From: Panorpa germanica
Lineage: Eukaryota > Arthropoda > Insecta > Mecoptera > Panorpidae
Direction of reading: 5' to 3'
NCBI GenBank assembly: GCA_963678705.1
Contig: OY783213.1
Location: forward strand, 16,930,451-16,994,450
Length of the DNA stretch: 64,000 nucleotides
Both the position numbers and the translations under genes were made by a program. Below the pieces are notes generated by a model. The model did no database searches. It saw nothing but the letters and a program-made list of their open reading frames with translations, and was not told where the DNA came from. Of the stretch, positions 20,438 through 29,729 are shown piece after piece. The stretch's first letter is position 1, and the number at the start of each line of letters is the position of its first letter.

Positions 20438-20675
20438 CCCGAAGTCAAAGGTCGGCATGCAAATAAATAGATTTAAATTGATTATGATTTGTAATCCAGA
20501 GCGGAAACGATTCGGGGAAGGGGTTTAATAAATTAATAATTGTACAGGTGTCCCCGATCGCCGCCTGGAGTCATGGAGTCATGGAGCCATTCTCACATTC
20601 ACAGACATACTGCTGTACAATATATATAATATATTTATAATATTTATAAGTATAATCTACACTGGCTATGGAACG

Positions 20676-20793
20676 CTACACTTGTGTGGCGAACGTCCCC
20701 GGGTCGGGCCTGCAGAAGTGCTCGTCTATCACATACACGCTGCTGGGCGTACACGCCGCCCCTGCTTTGTCCAGTGGCCTCTTGAGGACATCA
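20676..20793 (-). CDS. Dl: Delta coding exon 7 (C-terminus with PDZ ligand)
   Basis: The last 38 full codons read from SDVLKRP through SSVYVIDEHF to FATQV and stop TAG. The pattern (V)YVI(S/D)E ... AT(E/Q)V resembles the C-terminus of vertebrate Delta-like 1. A terminal ATxV is a class I PDZ ligand. Acceptor TTACAG. Confidence 0.88.
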
Positions 20794-23700
20794 CTGTAAC
20801 AACGGAAATACCGCGTTAGTTGCAAGCAAATTAGGTCATTTGCTATTTAGGAAAAGCCTCGATGTAGGAGCCGGTGGAGTCCACAACACAACAACGCAAA
20901 CGCACGCATTAAGGATTCGGTCCAGGATCTCAGTCCGTGGGCCCGTGGGCTGTGGCATTACATGTGTGGTGGACTACAAGGGCCGCATTGAGAGTGGCGC
21001 ACCCACCTTGTGTTGCAGAGTGATGAATCCGAGAGCACGGATATCCGCTTGTCCAGAAACTCCTTATGATGTTGGTTGTGATGTTGGTGTTGATTTTGAA
21101 GCTGATGCTGATGAGACAACAGCTGCGACGCCCTATGCACTGAAGGGTCCGTATTGAGCTGCTTCTGTGAGCACGCTCTATGTAAAGTGGAATAATCACT
21201 GTCACTAACAATGTTTCCAAGTCCTCCTCCCATACCCACACTAACACTACTGCACTCCTCCGCACTGGGCGAATTCGCCACATTGTTTATGCACTTTCCC
21301 CACGTGTTCTTAATCATATGCGCGTCGCCCGCTAATAGTCCGGCGCCACGTTTCGCCATGGAGCTTTGCACGGCGTTTTGTTCGTTTTGCATACGCGCTT
21401 CATCATCGGCGCGCGCTTTTTCACGTTTGCGTCGTTGTTTTAGACACATAACTACCACTGCCGCGACGAGAACTAACAACGGCACTGCCGTAGATACTGT
21501 CGCGATCACTACTACATGTTCGGTGCTGAGTCCTTCTTCTTCGGGCTCGCGATGTCCTTCCGATACATGGCGTGATAGATTGCCTGCATTCCAGAACGCG
21601 CCTTCAGCAGCTTCCTCTTCACACTGCGGACCTCGAAATCCGCCAACGCACACGCACTGGAAACTGTTAACGCGGTTCACACAGGTGCCCCCATTCTGAC
21701 AAGGGGCGGAGCGACATTCATCAACATCGATGCTGCAGTCCTTTCCAGTAAAGCCAGGTCTGCACGTGCACCGATAGTCATTATTCAAATTGGTACACAT
21801 ACCGCCATTAGCACAAGGTTTGGTGAGGCAAAGATCAACTTTGTTTTCGCAAAGTTTACCAATGTACCCTGGAACGCATTGACATCTGAAGTTGTTGACG
21901 AGGTCCACGCAAGATCCGCCATTCAAACAAAGATTTCCTTTGCAGTCGTCGATGTTGATTTCACACAATGTTCCAGTGAATCCCGAAGGACACGTGCACT
22001 GGAAGCCGCTCAGACGATTCGTACAAGATCCTCCGTTGACACAAGGGCTGGAAGCGCAGTTATCTATTTGGTTCTCGCAGTCTGTGCCACTGTAGCCAGC
22101 GGCGCACGAACAAGTATAGCCGGTGGGGTTATCATGACAAGTAGCACCATGTTTGCAAGGTGACTCGTCGCAGGTTTGTGCAGCCAATTCGCAATGAGCG
22201 CCGTGCCACCCCTTGGGGCACTCGCAGCGGTAATGATTACCGTTAGCTTTGCAGGTTCCTCCATTCTTGCATGGTTGTAAAGCGCAGTCATCAATCTTCT
22301 TCTCGCAATCAGTTCCGGTGTAACCAGATGGACAGCTGCACGTGTATGATCCTTGTCCAGTGTTGAAACAAGTTCCTCCATGTTTACAGGGCTTGTGATT
22401 TGTGCAATAGTTCAAGTCTTGATTGCAGAAGAGACCTCCCCAGCCTTCGTCGCAGAGACATTCCCAGGGCTTCTGACACGTTCCATGGTTGCAACCTGGG
22501 TAACGCTCGCATTCGTCGCAAAGTGGACCCTTCCATCCGCCATGACAACTGTAACAAGAGGAAACACAAACGGTAAGTCAGGTGAAAGAGACATTATAAA
22601 AACAACACGAATAGAATACACGCGCCACTGACGGAAATCTACGATTCCTCTTAACTTAGGCACCGACGTTCTCACGAGACAAAACACAAGTGTTGTCAGA
22701 GTTGCATACGTATGCAAGGGACTGTTTCGGAATAACTAATTCATCTATCTTTATTAGCAAATCTTATGTCACCAACGCGTGAGAAATTAATAAGGAATCT
22801 TCATTATCCAATATGTATTCGTGAATTGGAAGTTGTCAAACATTAATTAACACCAACATGTGACAGTGACAGTGTCAGTGTCAGTGACAGTGACTGTATT
22901 AGTATGAGAGCTTTCCTGTTAACTATGGTATATGGCTCAATACGGCGAAATGGCCTGGGAACCGCATGAGAATGCATTGTTTATTCAACTCGCCGTTAGT
23001 CGGGGTTCGTACAGAATAGGAATGTACTGTCCGTACTTCGTGGTCGTGCAGCCTTGATAAGCTCTAAGCGTCCCGGCGCGGCGACTAGCGGGGTCATCAT
23101 ACTACTCGCCTCCTCGCCACCAGGAGTACTGTGTACTGTACAACAAATGAACACAATGTGTGACGCACTCAGGCTCAGGTGACATATACAATGACTGACT
23201 GACGGAATGACGGAATGACGGGTGATCATGAACGTGCAATGTGTACATCAGGTATGTGAGTTGTACACTCATTGAGTTGCAGAGCGCGCGCCGGCACGCC
23301 CACTGGCGCACTATAACTTAACGTTCCCACGGCCCGGGGCCTCACTGGCCCCATCGACAGGTCAAGGCGAGGTCGCCCGCCGAATTGCAACAAAAAACAA
23401 CATTGGCACACCACCGAAGGTGTCATAGACTGGCATTACAACCAAAATACCTATTAAAACACAGGAAACAGACATGGGCTTCCGCAGGGGGAACAGCAAA
23501 GGAGACACTTGCCCCCTTTTACAATAAATAGAGAGGAATTCCTTTATTTACCGACGCCCTTGCAAACACTTATCGAGATATTGGTCATTATTTGAAACAG
23601 GTTCCATTTACTAAGTCATACATCGACATATTTCCATCTGTGTGCGAGTGTCAATATTTGCGAGATGATTTCCAGTTAAAATATGAACAAAGTACTTACT

Positions 23701-26700
23701 TGCACTCGTTTGGTTTGCTGCAATGTCCATGGGTGTCGTCACAGCCAGCTAAACAACGTGCTGTAACAAAAAAAAACTTAGGTGAGACACTGAACTAAAA
23801 TAAAATGATCAGACATGCGGGTTGACCGGCTGAGAAGTTGAAATACCAGAGTCAAAACAATGTCGATGTGTGCACCCTCTATGTGTGCCACTGTCCTGAT
23901 AATTTACTATCAAAACAAAGCCTTTAAGTGCACGTAATGACCGACATAGGGGACAGCTGCATTAATAGGTACAGCTGCCACGTGGTTGCATAAATCAGCC
24001 TTTTAAATGCAATAAACGAGTCAATAAAAAAAGAAATGTAATAAAGTGAACTCCAAATCGCAGGCGCAGACGCAGGTGCAGGTGCATAGCGTGAAGGGTC
24101 ATGTAAATATAGCGAATTTTATGTTAATATCGACTATTCATTGAACATCGATACAAGGTCATAACAAGTTTCCCACAGAGCTGCCGAATTAATCAAAAAA
24201 CCCGCGGGCTAATCCTTAACTTTAGCGTGAGAAGCAAATCAATAAATGACAAAAAATTGAAGGACTTACGTTTAGAGCAGTAATCTCCTTGCCAGCCAGG
24301 CAGACAGACTACTTCGCCAGTCGGGGAGCACGTGTAATGTCCAAAGTTGTCATTTCGTGGACGACAAACGTTCGCGCATCCGGATCCGTAGTAATGTGCG
24401 TCACAGGTGACGCGATACTCGTAATGCATCACAGAATGGGCAGAGCGATGTTCCTCTTGCTTCCAGTTGGCAGAAATGTCCAAAAACCGTTGGATGGTGA
24501 AACGAGATATCAAAACTCCAGAACCTGCAACAAAGAAAAAAAATTTAAGCTACACTATTAAAAATAGAAAAATATTGTTTATATTATATTGTTTGCAATT
24601 TTTTCGATCGCGACTTCTAAGTAAGGAATATTGAAACCTATTCATTCTTCTTTCTATATTCGTACGATACTGCCAACAATAAAAAAATCCAACCATAAAC
24701 ATTTTGTTATGAGATCTACTCGCATAGTAACAACAGCCCCGGGCGAAGCGTGTTATGGGCCGGGCGTTCTCTTGGTGCTCGTACTATCATAATGAAAGGA
24801 AACTGCATCCACTCAAAACAATCGCTAAGGAAACCAGAAGCTATCGAGTAAAAGGACCAGTTTTTTAGCTTCATCTCGTGGGATTATGTGCAATTATGAA
24901 ACGGGAGGGTACCAACACAGCCTGGAGTGCCATGTAGTGTGCGTGAGTCCAGACCTGGAGTTATATACAAACACGATGCCCGGATGGCCCAGCACTCACG
25001 GCGAAATAAGGATCGCTTCTGGTACCAACTCAAATAATAGTGAAAGATTTGTTTCCCATATCATATACAGCCTCATATAAACTGGCAAGAACGCAGACTG
25101 TACTTCTCAAACATGCAGGTGCAACGCGCAGGAGCTGCGGCGAGACATACACTGGACCTGTTTCTTATAGTAACTCTTGAGATTTTAATTTAACTTCAAT
25201 AAAAAATTGATAAACATTTCGTGTTTTGAATTTATCTGGCGTTACTGATGCGTGCTTTCTCTTATTTTCCCATGGACTCTTTTAAATTGTTAGAAAAAGT
25301 TACTAAAGATTTATACAAGAATATAAATTAATAAGTCAAACAACACATCCGGTAAAAATATTTAGAAAAAAAAAAGAAACAGAAAATTAATCAATAACAT
25401 ATTGTTCAAAAAGTCAAAAGTAATATTGTCTTGTGTTAGAATGTGTTCCAAGAATATTACCTGCATAATTAACAAAGAATAGGAGCAACACAATAAAGAC
25501 AGGCAGAAATCGAACTGTCTACTGTCACCTGGCCTCATTCTTTATATTTCTATACTAACTTAATGGGTAACAAAAAAGAAAAACGTATTTCAAAAAAATT
25601 GCACAGAAAATAAAATGAAATAGCGTAAAGCATAACTGAATGAATAGAAACCCGAAATACTGAAATAAAAATGGCGTCCTATTGTTATAAGGACGTTCTT
25701 TTGCAGGTTATGTTATGTATGTTTTAAAATAACATTGCACAACACACTAAAACTAATGCATGAGTATGGTATGCACATATATACATCACACCTGGCTTTG
25801 TCGTGTAATGAGGCGCGCGTTTCGTCGTCCATGGACTCAAGTTACCAGCAAACTAACTGGGCAATGAAGTTCCCATGGCCCATGGACAATATTCAAATAA
25901 AAAAAACAAGAGAAAAAACAGCACCGGAAGATTCGTCTTGGCTGTCACCGTCACCGTCGCCGTGTCAGGAAGGAGCATAACTTCGAATAGTTGACAGCCG
26001 GGTTGCATATGGCCCTTAAACTAGCACACGTCCGTTATGGTAAATGTCATACACACAACGAAACATCGTACTCGTCAGTACGAACACATGCATTACGCAC
26101 GAACGGAACACATATAAAATGTTTAAAGAAAATCACGTGAAGTTTTTAAAAAACATAAACAAAAATGCAAGATGCGAAAAAAATAAAATAAAAATGTATT
26201 TTAACTTACCGTCCGATCGTGTGGAGTCGTTACTGTCGTGCCAGGCTTCTACAATCAGAGAGAATGATCCCTGCAATACAAAAAATAACGTTTTAGAAAC
26301 CGTGTTTTAATTCACTACAATAGATGCATACCGGATACAAACTAGCCAATATCAAACTGCACCTACTTGCAGCAAATTAGCTAAATAACTTTACATTTAT
26401 ACAGGTATATTTTTTTTATTAAGTCTGATGAGTTTTTATATGTATGTATATAATAAAAATGATCGGGCTCTAGACAGTATTAAAAAGGCAGGTGATAAAG
26501 TATAGAATTTATCAACAAAAAGATATATCATAAACAAACACTGTTATAAAAATATGGTTTTCATATTTTACTAGTTTATAAACTTGGGATTTTTTAATAA
26601 ATATGAAAAATAAATAAAAAATATTTGAGTTAGTCTCAGAAACAAATAAATTTTAAATAAAAATTTGATGTAGTCAACTTAACTTTTCACATGTACTATT

Positions 26701-29700
26701 TTTTATGTTTTTTAATAGGAACTAAATTAATAACTTATTATTTAACGCAATAATCAAATATTCTTATCAGTTATTTTACCAAAAATATGAAAATATTAAA
26801 GAGTGAGGTTATGATTCCTTGTTGTTTACACTTTTTTACTATTTTAATAGAAAATTTGTACAAAAAAAAAAGATCTGATGACAAGGGTTTAAACTGCACC
26901 GATGTGGCAACAGTGTGAGCCCCGGGATGTCACTCATTAGAGCATAGGAACACAGGAGGTACAGGAGCATAGGGGAACTGTCAATGTCAATGTGAGAGAA
27001 ACTCACGTTGACCGGAAGCTGGTGTCAAAGCGATCGCTCTCACACGTCTTCGCTTACGGTATAAACATAAGATCACCAGACACAAATGCGGAAGTTCTAA
27101 TTCTACATTGCTAGATAATACGCTAAAATGTATCACAGTGCTTATTTAAAATAGTAAACAAAAATATTTTGTAGGGGATAAAATAAAAAAAAAGCAACCA
27201 CACGGGAACTGACGTAACACCGAGCACAGAGTTAATGGGTAGCGTATCTGCTGCATATGTAGGTAAAGCGGAAGGGTAGAACGCTCGGGGGCTTAGGGCC
27301 CGCCATATGCCCCTCTGTGTGCATGCCATCTGCTATATACTCGCACAAACCAGGGCCGCTCTGATCGGAAAACCATCTGGTGTAACATTAAAATAAAATA
27401 TAAGTAAAAAAAACAACAAGTTAACTCACCGGCCACGTAAAATCAAACGGGAATCTAATGGGATTCACAAATCCCTCTTCTTTGGAGCTCAACATGTTAA
27501 CAGAGTTATCACCCAAGACTGGGGTGACAACGTCTCCAAATGTACACTGCGTCGTCGTATCTATTTTGTCTTCGTATTGTTTTAAACACACTCTGAATCG
27601 GGTTTGACAAGTACCGATGCATCGGCCTTCTGAATCTTGGTGCCCGCTGCAACAGGCGCCGGTATTGTCCTTGCCGTAATCATTTGTAAAGGATTTGAGT
27701 CGTAACTCGAAGAATCCAGAACATTTCACCTGGAAAATAAAATAAGACGTGTTTACACTCCTATGTCGTTCGATGTACATTGTACAGTACAAGTAAATCT
27801 AAATTATTAAATGCCAAATAGGTTTACTGTGTAATGACTTGCAACTCACTCGCTAGCTCGCCCACAAACACAAATATGGCAAGACAAGTACATTGACATT
27901 ATACGGGACGGTACAAATATGAAGCAACCTAAGTAAAAGTAAATTCACGCATTTGTTTTCAAGTACTTGTTACTTGCAATCATTTGATGTATAGATATAA
28001 AAGGAATAAAACAAACAATTTTATACCGACCGACAGCCGAAGATTAATGTCTAATGAGATATAATGTCTATCTAATGGATCGTCTGCACGGAGGCAACAT
28101 TTTACTACAACATATGTCAAATTATAGTCACATTCATTTTTTGCAATTGGCTCAAATTACCTGTAATAATGATGTGTAGAGACCAAACACATTTGAAGAG
28201 ATTGCAAGATTAAAACAACAATATTTTTTCAACAATTTGAAAAAGTTGTTTCATTTTTGTACTTTACCAATATATATTGTTAACTGTGTAAACGCGTTGT
28301 GTTAGAAATAAATTTTGGTTAAAAATATTTTTTTTTAAATTATAATCATTTCAAATACAACAAACTAATTTTTAAGATTTATTTATTACACATTATTCTT
28401 AACTTATACAAGATATAACACTCTTACATAATACAGTATTTCCTAAAATGCAACTGATATAAAATTTATGTAGTCAATTTAGACGTAAATTTATACGTAA
28501 GTGCTACATAATTGTGTATAATAAATATTGTAATTAATTTGCAAGTTTCGATATAAATATTGTCATATTTTTTTAAGTATTAATAAAAGGAATACGTGTT
28601 TACATTTTATCTTTTGTAAAGAAATGTAATCTTTTGTAAATTTATGTAATTAAATTATATATATATTCATCAAAATATTTTTATAGATAATTTTATAAAA
28701 GAAAGTCATTTAATACTTATTGGAAAAGTTACAAAACTGAAGACAAAATTATTTTACATAAAAAAAACACTGCTTAATATAATAAGGTAAAGTAATTTAC
28801 GAAATAACGCAAAATTTTTATAAGTTTCAGAAAAAGGTAAAACTGTATATATTGTAAAAATTATGTCAAATAGTAAAAAGTTAAATATTCGACAAAATGA
28901 TATCTGCCGAAAGAATTATATTTCAATAAATTTCGGTAAATAATATTTAATTTACAATTTGGAGTTTGAAAAACATTCTCTTAATAAGTAATTCCTTTTA
29001 GCCGTAAAAAAGCAGTGCTCTAATAATTTTTCCAGAAAATATTCCCGATGCACAATGTGTTGCTTGTAGAAGAAATACCACAAGTCCGCCAGTGCGTACT
29101 GGACACAGAGTCGCGATTTTATCGCAAAAACATCGCGTCCGAGAAGCGGACTGGAGACGTCGTGATGCGAAAAGGATAAAACTATTACATTAGCGTCACT
29201 ACCATCTATAGGACGTTCTCATTCACAACGAGAACCTGGATTTGTACATTGTAATACACAACGATATTAGGCCCAACACAAAAACTGGTCCACGCTTCCG
29301 ATCGCCAATCGGGATCAGAATCGGGATAATGATACGTAACTTGATGCACTAAAGTTGATGGATGCATCGACTGAAATCGGCAAATCGGGCAAATCGGCCA
29401 ATTCCCCATCCCGCGGTATAGACAATGAGCCAGGTCCAGGTCCATACCGCAGGTTTTCAGGACCTCGCAGTTTTTGTGTGTGTTAGTATTGGTGAGAATA
29501 GCTGCCAGGCAACTATCATTTGAAAGAGTTTATATGAGAGTTACGGCAGTACGCTGGCCTCGCGAACGGGCCGTGGGAAAGTGATGCGCGATCTGCACGG
29601 GAACACGGACTGTCGGTACAGCGGTCCAAGTGGTGGAGTCATAGTCAACAATTCAAAACTTAATAAATAATTTGTTCTTACCTGGTTAACGGCGATGAAT

Positions 29701-29729
29701 GTCAGAGTCAAAAAGAATATCCAATGCAT
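20676..29729 (-). CDS. Dl: Delta, DSL-family Notch ligand (spliced, seven coding exons)
   Basis: Single-pass membrane ligand that binds Notch on adjacent cells and is internalised to trigger Notch cleavage. Coding exons (minus strand, in order): 29729-29682, 27729-27430, 26270-26210, 24524-24270, 23760-23700, 22548-21007, 20793-20676. All introns are GT-AG and the exons sum to 2385 nt, giving 794 residues plus stop with no frame break. Seen: signal peptide 1 to about 18; N-terminal MNNL region about 18-115; DSL domain with Cys177, 186, 190, 202, 210 and 219; nine EGF repeats (224-252, 255-283, 290-323, 330-361, 368-399, 406-437, 444-475, 482-513, 520-551); membrane helix about 587-609; basic stop-transfer KQRRKREK. 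The tail carries NEQN (630-633, the NXXN type bound by Neuralized), IKNTW (654-658, a conserved block linked to Mindbomb binding) and a terminal ATQV PDZ ligand. The start ATG has A at -3. No paralogue is in view. Confidence 0.95.
20958..21007 (-). other. Dl: Alternative Delta C-terminus by retention of the last intron
   Basis: If the 213-bp last intron is not spliced, exon 6 reads on for 15 further codons after the split Arg/Ser codon to a TAA at 20958-20960, giving a 771-residue protein. The extension reads RWVRHSQCGPCSPPHM. From memory, the annotated Drosophila Delta also ends in Cys-Gly ... Pro-His-Met, with an Arg-Trp shortly after a block like DKRISVL. This suggests the read-through is a conserved isoform lacking the PDZ ligand, not an accident. 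The donor GTGGGT is weaker than the others in this gene. Confidence 0.55.
21007..22548 (-). CDS. Dl: Delta coding exon 6 (EGF 1-9, membrane helix, most of the tail)
   Basis: 1542 bp. Opens with CHGGWKGPLC, contains GLFCNQDLNYCTNH, then seven canonical EGF repeats, several of calcium-binding type (IDDC, VDLC, VDEC starts). The helix VVVIATVSTAVPLLVLVAAV is followed by the intracellular tail with NEQN, IKNTW, SQKQLNTDP and DKRISVL. A His/Gln-rich stretch lies near tail residues 719-736. It ends ACA AG before the non-standard donor GTGGGT. Confidence 0.95.
22668..22676 (-). promoter_or_regulatory. Su(H)/CSL consensus site, Delta intron 5
   Basis: The minus strand reads CGTGAGAAC, a full match to YGTGRGAAM, the DNA target of the Notch effector Su(H). 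Occupancy is not shown by sequence. Confidence 0.45.
22858..22896. repeat. Simple repeat of gacagt/gtcagt in Delta intron 5
   Basis: Tandem hexamers tgacag and tgtcag alternate, giving partial self-complementarity. It is intronic and probably neutral. Confidence 0.7.
23323..23331 (-). promoter_or_regulatory. Su(H)/CSL consensus site, Delta intron 5
   Basis: The minus strand reads CGTGGGAAC, a full match to the high-affinity form of YGTGRGAAM, in a locally GC-rich part of the intron. Confidence 0.5.
23700..23760 (-). CDS. Dl: Delta coding exon 5 (first part of EGF 1)
   Basis: 61 bp encoding RCLAGCDDTHGHC, then SKPNEC. It lies between acceptor TTACAG and donor GTAAGT. The frame is fixed only when it is joined to exons 4 and 6. 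It supplies the first half of EGF repeat 1. Confidence 0.92.
23954..24084. promoter_or_regulatory. E-box cluster in Delta intron 4
   Basis: Five E-boxes in 131 bp: CAGCTG at 23954 and 23972, CACGTG at 23979, and adjacent CAGGTG copies at 24073 and 24079. CAGCTG and CAGGTG suit proneural bHLH activators (Achaete-Scute class). CACGTG suits Hairy/E(spl)-type bHLH proteins. A Su(H) site lies 85 bp further on. The arrangement fits an enhancer but is unproven. Confidence 0.5.
24169..24177 (-). promoter_or_regulatory. Su(H)/CSL consensus site, Delta intron 4
   Basis: The minus strand reads TGTGGGAAA, a full match to YGTGRGAAM, close to the intron 4 E-box cluster. Confidence 0.5.
24270..24524 (-). 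CDS. Dl: Delta coding exon 4 (DSL domain)
   Basis: Carries the complete Notch-binding DSL domain: YEYRVTCDAHYYGSGC, then CRPRNDNFGHYTC and GWQGDYC, with all six cysteines. Acceptor TTGCAG, donor GTAAGT. The last codon is split (C|CA, Pro222). Confidence 0.95.
26210..26270 (-). CDS. Dl: Delta coding exon 3 (61 bp)
   Basis: Encodes GSFSLIVEAWHD, a hallmark of Delta proteins between MNNL and DSL, then SNDSTRSD. Acceptor TTGCAG, donor GTAAGT. It ends one base into a Gly codon, completed by exon 4. Confidence 0.93.
27430..27729 (-). CDS. Dl: Delta coding exon 2 (MNNL domain)
   Basis: Exactly 100 codons, phase 0 at both ends, acceptor TTCCAG and donor GTGAGT. It starts VKCSGFFELRL, the conserved beginning of the N-terminal Notch-ligand (MNNL/C2) domain, and holds a Cys-rich middle (ACCSG, CIGTC, CTFGD). 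Confidence 0.93.
29083..29152. repeat. Small inverted-repeat element in Delta intron 1
   Basis: AGTCCGC at 29083-29089 is matched by GCGGACT at 29146-29152, with an inner near-palindrome (tcgcgattttatcgc ... atcgcg). This looks like a short MITE or decayed foldback. Size about 70 bp. Confidence 0.45.
29572..29580 (+). promoter_or_regulatory. Su(H)/CSL consensus site, Delta intron 1
   Basis: CGTGGGAAA on the plus strand, a full match to YGTGRGAAM, 102 bp past the end of the first coding exon and so near the promoter-proximal region. Confidence 0.5.
29682..29729 (-). CDS. Dl: Delta coding exon 1 (signal peptide)
   Basis: Encodes 16 residues, MHWIFFLTLTFIAVNQ, a hydrophobic secretion signal. 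It ends CAG before donor GTAAGA, phase 0. The 5' UTR lies upstream and its limit is unknown. Confidence 0.9.

Follow-up and report, generated by a model that had tools for sequence, protein, structure and literature searches.

The window, a stretch of 64,000 nucleotides from Panorpa germanica, harbours a gene for a Delta-type DSL Notch ligand, in which an MNNL and a DSL domain are followed by EGF repeats. Seven exons with GT-AG boundaries were mapped on the minus strand (Table 1), using tblastn with a provisional fly Delta sequence, one not taken from a database, as query; exon 6 gave the match to this query with an E value of 9.7e-152. In the joined protein, Pfam recognised MNNL (2.1e-53), DSL (1.9e-19) and EGF (4.9e-44), and the part encoded by exon 6 matched Delta-like protein 1 in the PDB (3.1e-107). 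Exon 1 is the least certain of the seven exons. It was one of 6 rows (4 distinct starts) in a filtered scan for hydrophobic first exons, and was chosen for its in-frame join to exon 2 and for its start, MHWI, which it has in common with the provisional fly protein. The tail part of exon 6 contains the motifs NEQN, IKNTW, KQLNTD and KRISVL, of which NEQN and IKNTW, the Neuralized and Mib1 docking motifs, have been named as such for insect Delta (PMC10741450, PMC5675594).

Table 1. Positions in the window of the Delta exons, the last intron and the read-through coding stretch
Feature	Position	Strand	Content and evidence
Probable exon 1	29682..29729	-	MHWIFFLTLTFIAVNQ, signal peptide start; donor CAG/GTAAGA
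Exon 2, MNNL region	27430..27729	-	tblastn with provisional fly Delta, splice sites, Pfam MNNL
Exon 3	26210..26270	-	tblastn with provisional fly Delta, splice sites
Exon 4, DSL domain	24270..24524	-	tblastn with provisional fly Delta, splice sites, Pfam
Exon 5	23700..23760	-	tblastn with provisional fly Delta, splice sites
Exon 6	21007..22548	-	EGF repeats, transmembrane segment, cytoplasmic tail; tblastn, splice sites, PDB and Pfam matches
Last intron	20794..21006	-	213 nt, phase 2; donor AAG/GTGGGT, acceptor GTTGTTACAG; GC 0.526
Exon 7, coding part	20676..20793	-	(S)DVLKRPLDKAGAACTPSSVYVIDEHFCRPDPGTFATQV and TAG (20678..20676); class I PDZ ligand
Read-through coding stretch on intron retention	20958..21006	-	(R)WVRHSQCGPCSPPHM and TAA

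Within the intron upstream of exon 6, a short tandem repeat of GTGACA (5.8 copies) was found at 22860-22894. Besides Delta, two further places exceeded the cut-off for a DSL domain: a strong match on C2, which is probably Serrate, and a partial DSL domain (35.5 bits; L003:1486-1650 and 1681-1917, G000:C3 about 7391800), which precedes a reading frame with EGF-like cysteines.

The last intron gives the protein two possible ends. When it is removed, Delta has 794 amino acids, continues as LCNT-S-DVLKRPLDKAGAACTPSSVYVIDEHFCRPDPGTFATQV and ends with SVYVIDEHFCRPDPGTFATQV; when it is kept, Delta has 771 amino acids, continues as LCNT-RWVRHSQCGPCSPPHM and ends with SLCNTRWVRHSQCGPCSPPHM. The retained frame consists of the split codon and 15 codons, closed by TAA at 20960..20958. 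The intron runs from GTGGGT to TTACAG, and 26 nt from its 3′ end begins a CTAAC that resembles a branch point. An intact intron and a usable read-through frame thus occupy one place in the gene, as last-intron retention demands. The first-pass annotation had proposed a spliced end in ATQV and a read-through end in PHM, and by sequence it was correct in its coordinates and in both readings. The terminal TQV of the spliced form fits the class I PDZ ligand pattern S/T-x-hydrophobic, whereas PHM, at the end of the retained form, falls outside it. The length of 213 nt equals 3 x 71; were it not for two stops in frame, at intron bases 47 and 158, the retained reading would run on into exon 7.

The spliced end resembles that of vertebrate Delta proteins. 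Exon 7 was aligned with a provisional sequence of the human DLL1 tail, presumably ending in ATEV. The two share KRP, SVYVI and AT.V, and 14 of 5000 shuffles scored as high. The terminal motif of bilaterian Delta has been named ATEV (PMC5356439). PDZ partners of DLL1 and DLL4 are Dlg1, MPDZ and SYNJ2BP, and DLL1 also binds MAGI proteins (PMC1965462, PMC5933922). Furthermore, when the terminal PDZ-binding part of DeltaD was missing in zebrafish, the protein was still internalised with Mib1, but its balance between surface and vesicles was shifted (PMC4447371).

For the retained end, the relevant protein is Drosophila Delta. In the provisional sequence, its tail has Cys-Gly directly before a terminal TPHM and an Arg-Trp further upstream, with 45 residues counted from RW. 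The Arg-Trp (provisional for the fly) lies 8 residues past KRISVL in both species. The first-pass annotation had given the fly terminus in much the same form; its Cys-Gly and upstream Arg-Trp are still provisional, while TPHM is confirmed by a published tagging primer (PMC10655352). This primer for HA-tagged Drosophila Delta contains GC ACT CCG CAT ATG, followed by Ala, the HA tag, a stop, an XbaI site and the 3′ UTR, and the frame set by the HA tag reads it as TPHM, preceded by a codon whose last two bases are GC (PMC10655352). The final three residues and the stop of the retained Panorpa end are the same as those of the fly, the one other species compared. We take CATATG to be the NdeI site. 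An HA-tagged Delta was also built from a synthesised fragment comprising the tail from the NdeI site onwards (PMC5675594), a design in keeping with a PHM end in the fly.

The rest of the provisional fly tail is supported because it agrees with print in three respects, as far as the passages of these papers go. This sequence has 12 lysines, at 620, 622, 624, 629, 636, 665, 683, 688, 739, 742, 762 and 775, which are all 12 positions named in PMC11887331 and PMC10741450. In addition, icd1 falls at 630 to 641, matching the printed range (PMC11887331, PMC10741450), and the K775 primer for fly Delta encodes AEG(K)RISVL (PMC11887331).

Could the read-through end resemble fly Delta merely by chance? 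The motif is short, and in a gapped local alignment with the provisional fly tail, 49 of 5000 shuffles did as well as the retained tail. No alignment was found in the stretch between RW and the last six residues, for which the fly tail (45 residues from RW, provisional) was compared with that of Panorpa (16). However, the exact PHM before the stop is found here at the end of the orthologous gene, and when the intron was modelled at random to first order, PHM preceded only 10 of 99,907 stops, in no case together with Cys at −6. When the retained peptide was shuffled, 344 of 200,000 shuffles ended in PHM, and 145 of 200,000 matched CGTPHM (C and G provisional) at four of the six terminal residues. 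Together with the equal distance of Arg-Trp from KRISVL, provisional for the fly, this makes chance a very improbable explanation. That a frame stays open for 15 codons is nothing unusual; it is the end, PHM plus stop, that exceeds chance. In a cross control, exon 7 was aligned with the provisional fly tail, and 2745 of 5000 shuffles scored as high. Judged by these alignments, the likeness of the retained end to the fly tail is specific and exon 7 is unlike the fly tail.

Database searches with the tail alone returned weak matches to unrelated molecules in the PDB (best E 0.14 and 0.62), and Pfam assigned the retained tail to 0 families. With the Delta tail as query, the genome contig collection yielded 31 stretches and 0 relatives. 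The viral contig collection yielded 11 pattern stretches with the exon 6 protein and 4 stretches with a 296-aa N-terminal Delta part, again with 0 relatives in each case.

The codon usage of the 15 read-through codons gave log2 odds of 2.14, compared to a mean of 7.44 for in-frame 15-codon stretches of exon 6, the codon table having been made from exon 6 itself, which is also the source of that mean. Of 1967 open intron stretches, 8% scored 2.14 or more. The other open stretches of the last intron had a mean of −0.58, yet many of the printed values were above 2.14. The test has little power, as the 38 codons of exon 7 scored just 1.35 log2 units. By codon usage, the 15 codons are thus not clearly coding, and the result is not decisive. 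Regulation through RNA structure was dropped as a candidate (folding z −0.37, with 32 of 100 shuffles as good).

The donor of the last intron, GTGGGT, had been described as weak, but this was not borne out. With U1, AAG/GTGGGT paired at −9.6 kcal/mol, the best value among the Delta donors scored, compared to −9.1, −9.0, −5.4 and −5.3 kcal/mol for the donors of exons 2 to 5; the score is a crude duplex energy and not a trained splice score, and covers the donors of exons 2 to 5 and the last donor. A U1 pairing at least as strong was found at 5 of 3735 GT sites on the strand, AAG/GTGGGT included. Because the donor pairs well with U1, splicing of the last intron could be constitutive. At the +4 position, the last donor carries a G, and the five other Delta donors carry an A. 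As the intron is in phase 2, the first whole retained codon is made up of T and the donor bases +3 and +4. Of the consensus donors, GTAAGT would give TAA and GTGAGT would give TGA in the retained frame, while GTGGGT gives TGG, encoding Trp. The retained frame therefore stays open because the +4 G departs from the consensus donor. Selection may maintain the +4 G, a reading supported by the provisional Arg-Trp at the same place in the fly.

The strong donor is also what would be expected if only the spliced PDZ form mattered in Panorpa, with the PHM end a silent or leaky relic from an ancestor in which it was in use, and the fly lineage having kept the read-through alone. The unconvincing codon usage of the 15 codons is in line with this, as are the passages on fly Delta, which mention a single C-terminus (PMC11887331, PMC10655352). 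A silent stretch of 15 codons, however, is unlikely to have kept PHM and a stop since the split from the fly, or a donor base without which the frame would close at once, and we consider such a relic rather unlikely, although it has to be taken seriously. We lean towards a single Delta gene with two real alternative C-termini, set by the removal or retention of the last intron. More tentatively, both tails may have been kept since before Panorpa and the fly split, in which case flies would have lost the PDZ exon and held on to the read-through end, and the +4 G would reflect the combined demands of splicing and of coding for Arg-Trp; we regard this history as possible, with the balance somewhat against it.

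Retention might also regulate the amount of Delta and not its tail, if the intron-retaining RNA stayed in the nucleus and was spliced on demand or decayed. A short and GC-rich profile is known for detained introns, and with 213 nt and a GC content of 0.526, compared to 0.326 to 0.449 in four other introns (intron 1 excluded), the last intron has such a profile. This explanation does not account for a retained end that matches the end of the fly protein, and we consider it improbable. Returning to two alternative C-termini, none of the poly(A)-type hexamers AATAAA, ATTAAA, AATATA, TATAAA and AGTAAA starts inside the last intron, and therefore both forms would share one 3′ end. The first of these five hexamers past the exon 7 stop lies at 20648. 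A search of the Panorpa genome itself (464-Mb assembly, 249 contigs) with the tail revealed no retrocopy that would show splicing among its 3 matches at E up to 10. Two of these were two exons of Delta itself, and the third was read as chance (E 3.37, 21% identity, one stop).

We propose that removal of the last intron would join exon 7 and thereby give the ancestral bilaterian end, KRP...SVYVI.E...ATQV, a predicted class I PDZ ligand. Through this end, Delta would be predicted to attach to scaffolds at junctions, such as those of the MAGI, Dlg or MPDZ type, and the coupling would thereby influence its surface level and position. Retention would instead give a fly-type end, putatively homologous to TPHM and without the PDZ ligand, and would turn exon 7 into 3′ UTR. 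Exon-junction-dependent decay depends on an intron downstream of the stop; since no intron follows the retained stop, such decay is not expected. Both forms would keep the Neuralized-binding NEQN and the Mib1-binding IKNTW and so could still signal, and the expected difference between them is their coupling to junction scaffolds. We infer that both RNAs are made, that their use is regulated and that PDZ coupling is altered. In the fly, Dl-HA (the exon 6 knock-in with the tag at the PHM end) over a deficiency developed to adulthood with the usual haplo-insufficient phenotype (PMC10655352), which implies that a Delta with a PHM-type end can do essential work in the fly.

Retention of the last intron in Delta is an event of a known kind, published for Platynereis (PMC5356439). 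In the open-licence literature searched, none of the papers listed describes an insect Delta with two C-termini. This speaks only weakly for novelty, and both isoforms may well be present in insect gene annotations. What appears new here is that one insect gene carries the ancestral PDZ end as well as the fly-type end, together with the relation between the donor and the codon. If both tails have indeed been kept since before the split from flies, insect Delta would be a splice-controlled choice between a PDZ-coupled and an uncoupled Notch ligand. Delta holds a central place among the ligands of cell signalling. Studies of the fly, for which we found only the PHM end documented, may describe just one of two ancestral tails. 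Moreover, if both forms are used, insects would offer an internal splice choice with which to study how the ligand is coupled to junctions. According to a review, the tail of Drosophila Delta is related to the DLL1 and DLL4 groups only at a distance (PMC1965462), which would be easier to understand if the PDZ exon had been lost.

Compared to known systems, the spliced Panorpa protein differs from human Delta in ending with ATQV instead of ATEV, the human end being provisional. It shares with vertebrate DLL1 and DLL4 a C-terminal PDZ ligand (PMC1965462, PMC5933922), as also reflected in the alignment of exon 7 with the provisional human DLL1 tail. In Platynereis dumerilii, the Delta variants tv1 and tv2 arise by retention of the last intron, which results in a shorter protein without the ATEV PDZ ligand (Gazave et al. 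2017, PMC5356439). These authors reported similar splicing in vertebrates too and proposed a bilaterian origin (PMC5356439). Loss of the PDZ ligand through retention of the last Delta intron would be common to Platynereis and Panorpa, but the Platynereis protein ends with ATEV and not ATQV (PMC5356439), and the alternative Panorpa end is one in common with Drosophila. With Drosophila melanogaster Delta, Panorpa shares the tail motifs NEQN, IKNTW and KRISVL and, by read-through, the PHM end. In contrast to Panorpa, exon 6 in the fly knock-in carries the tail to TPHM, followed by HA, the stop and the 3′ UTR, as given in the passages describing its construction (PMC10655352).
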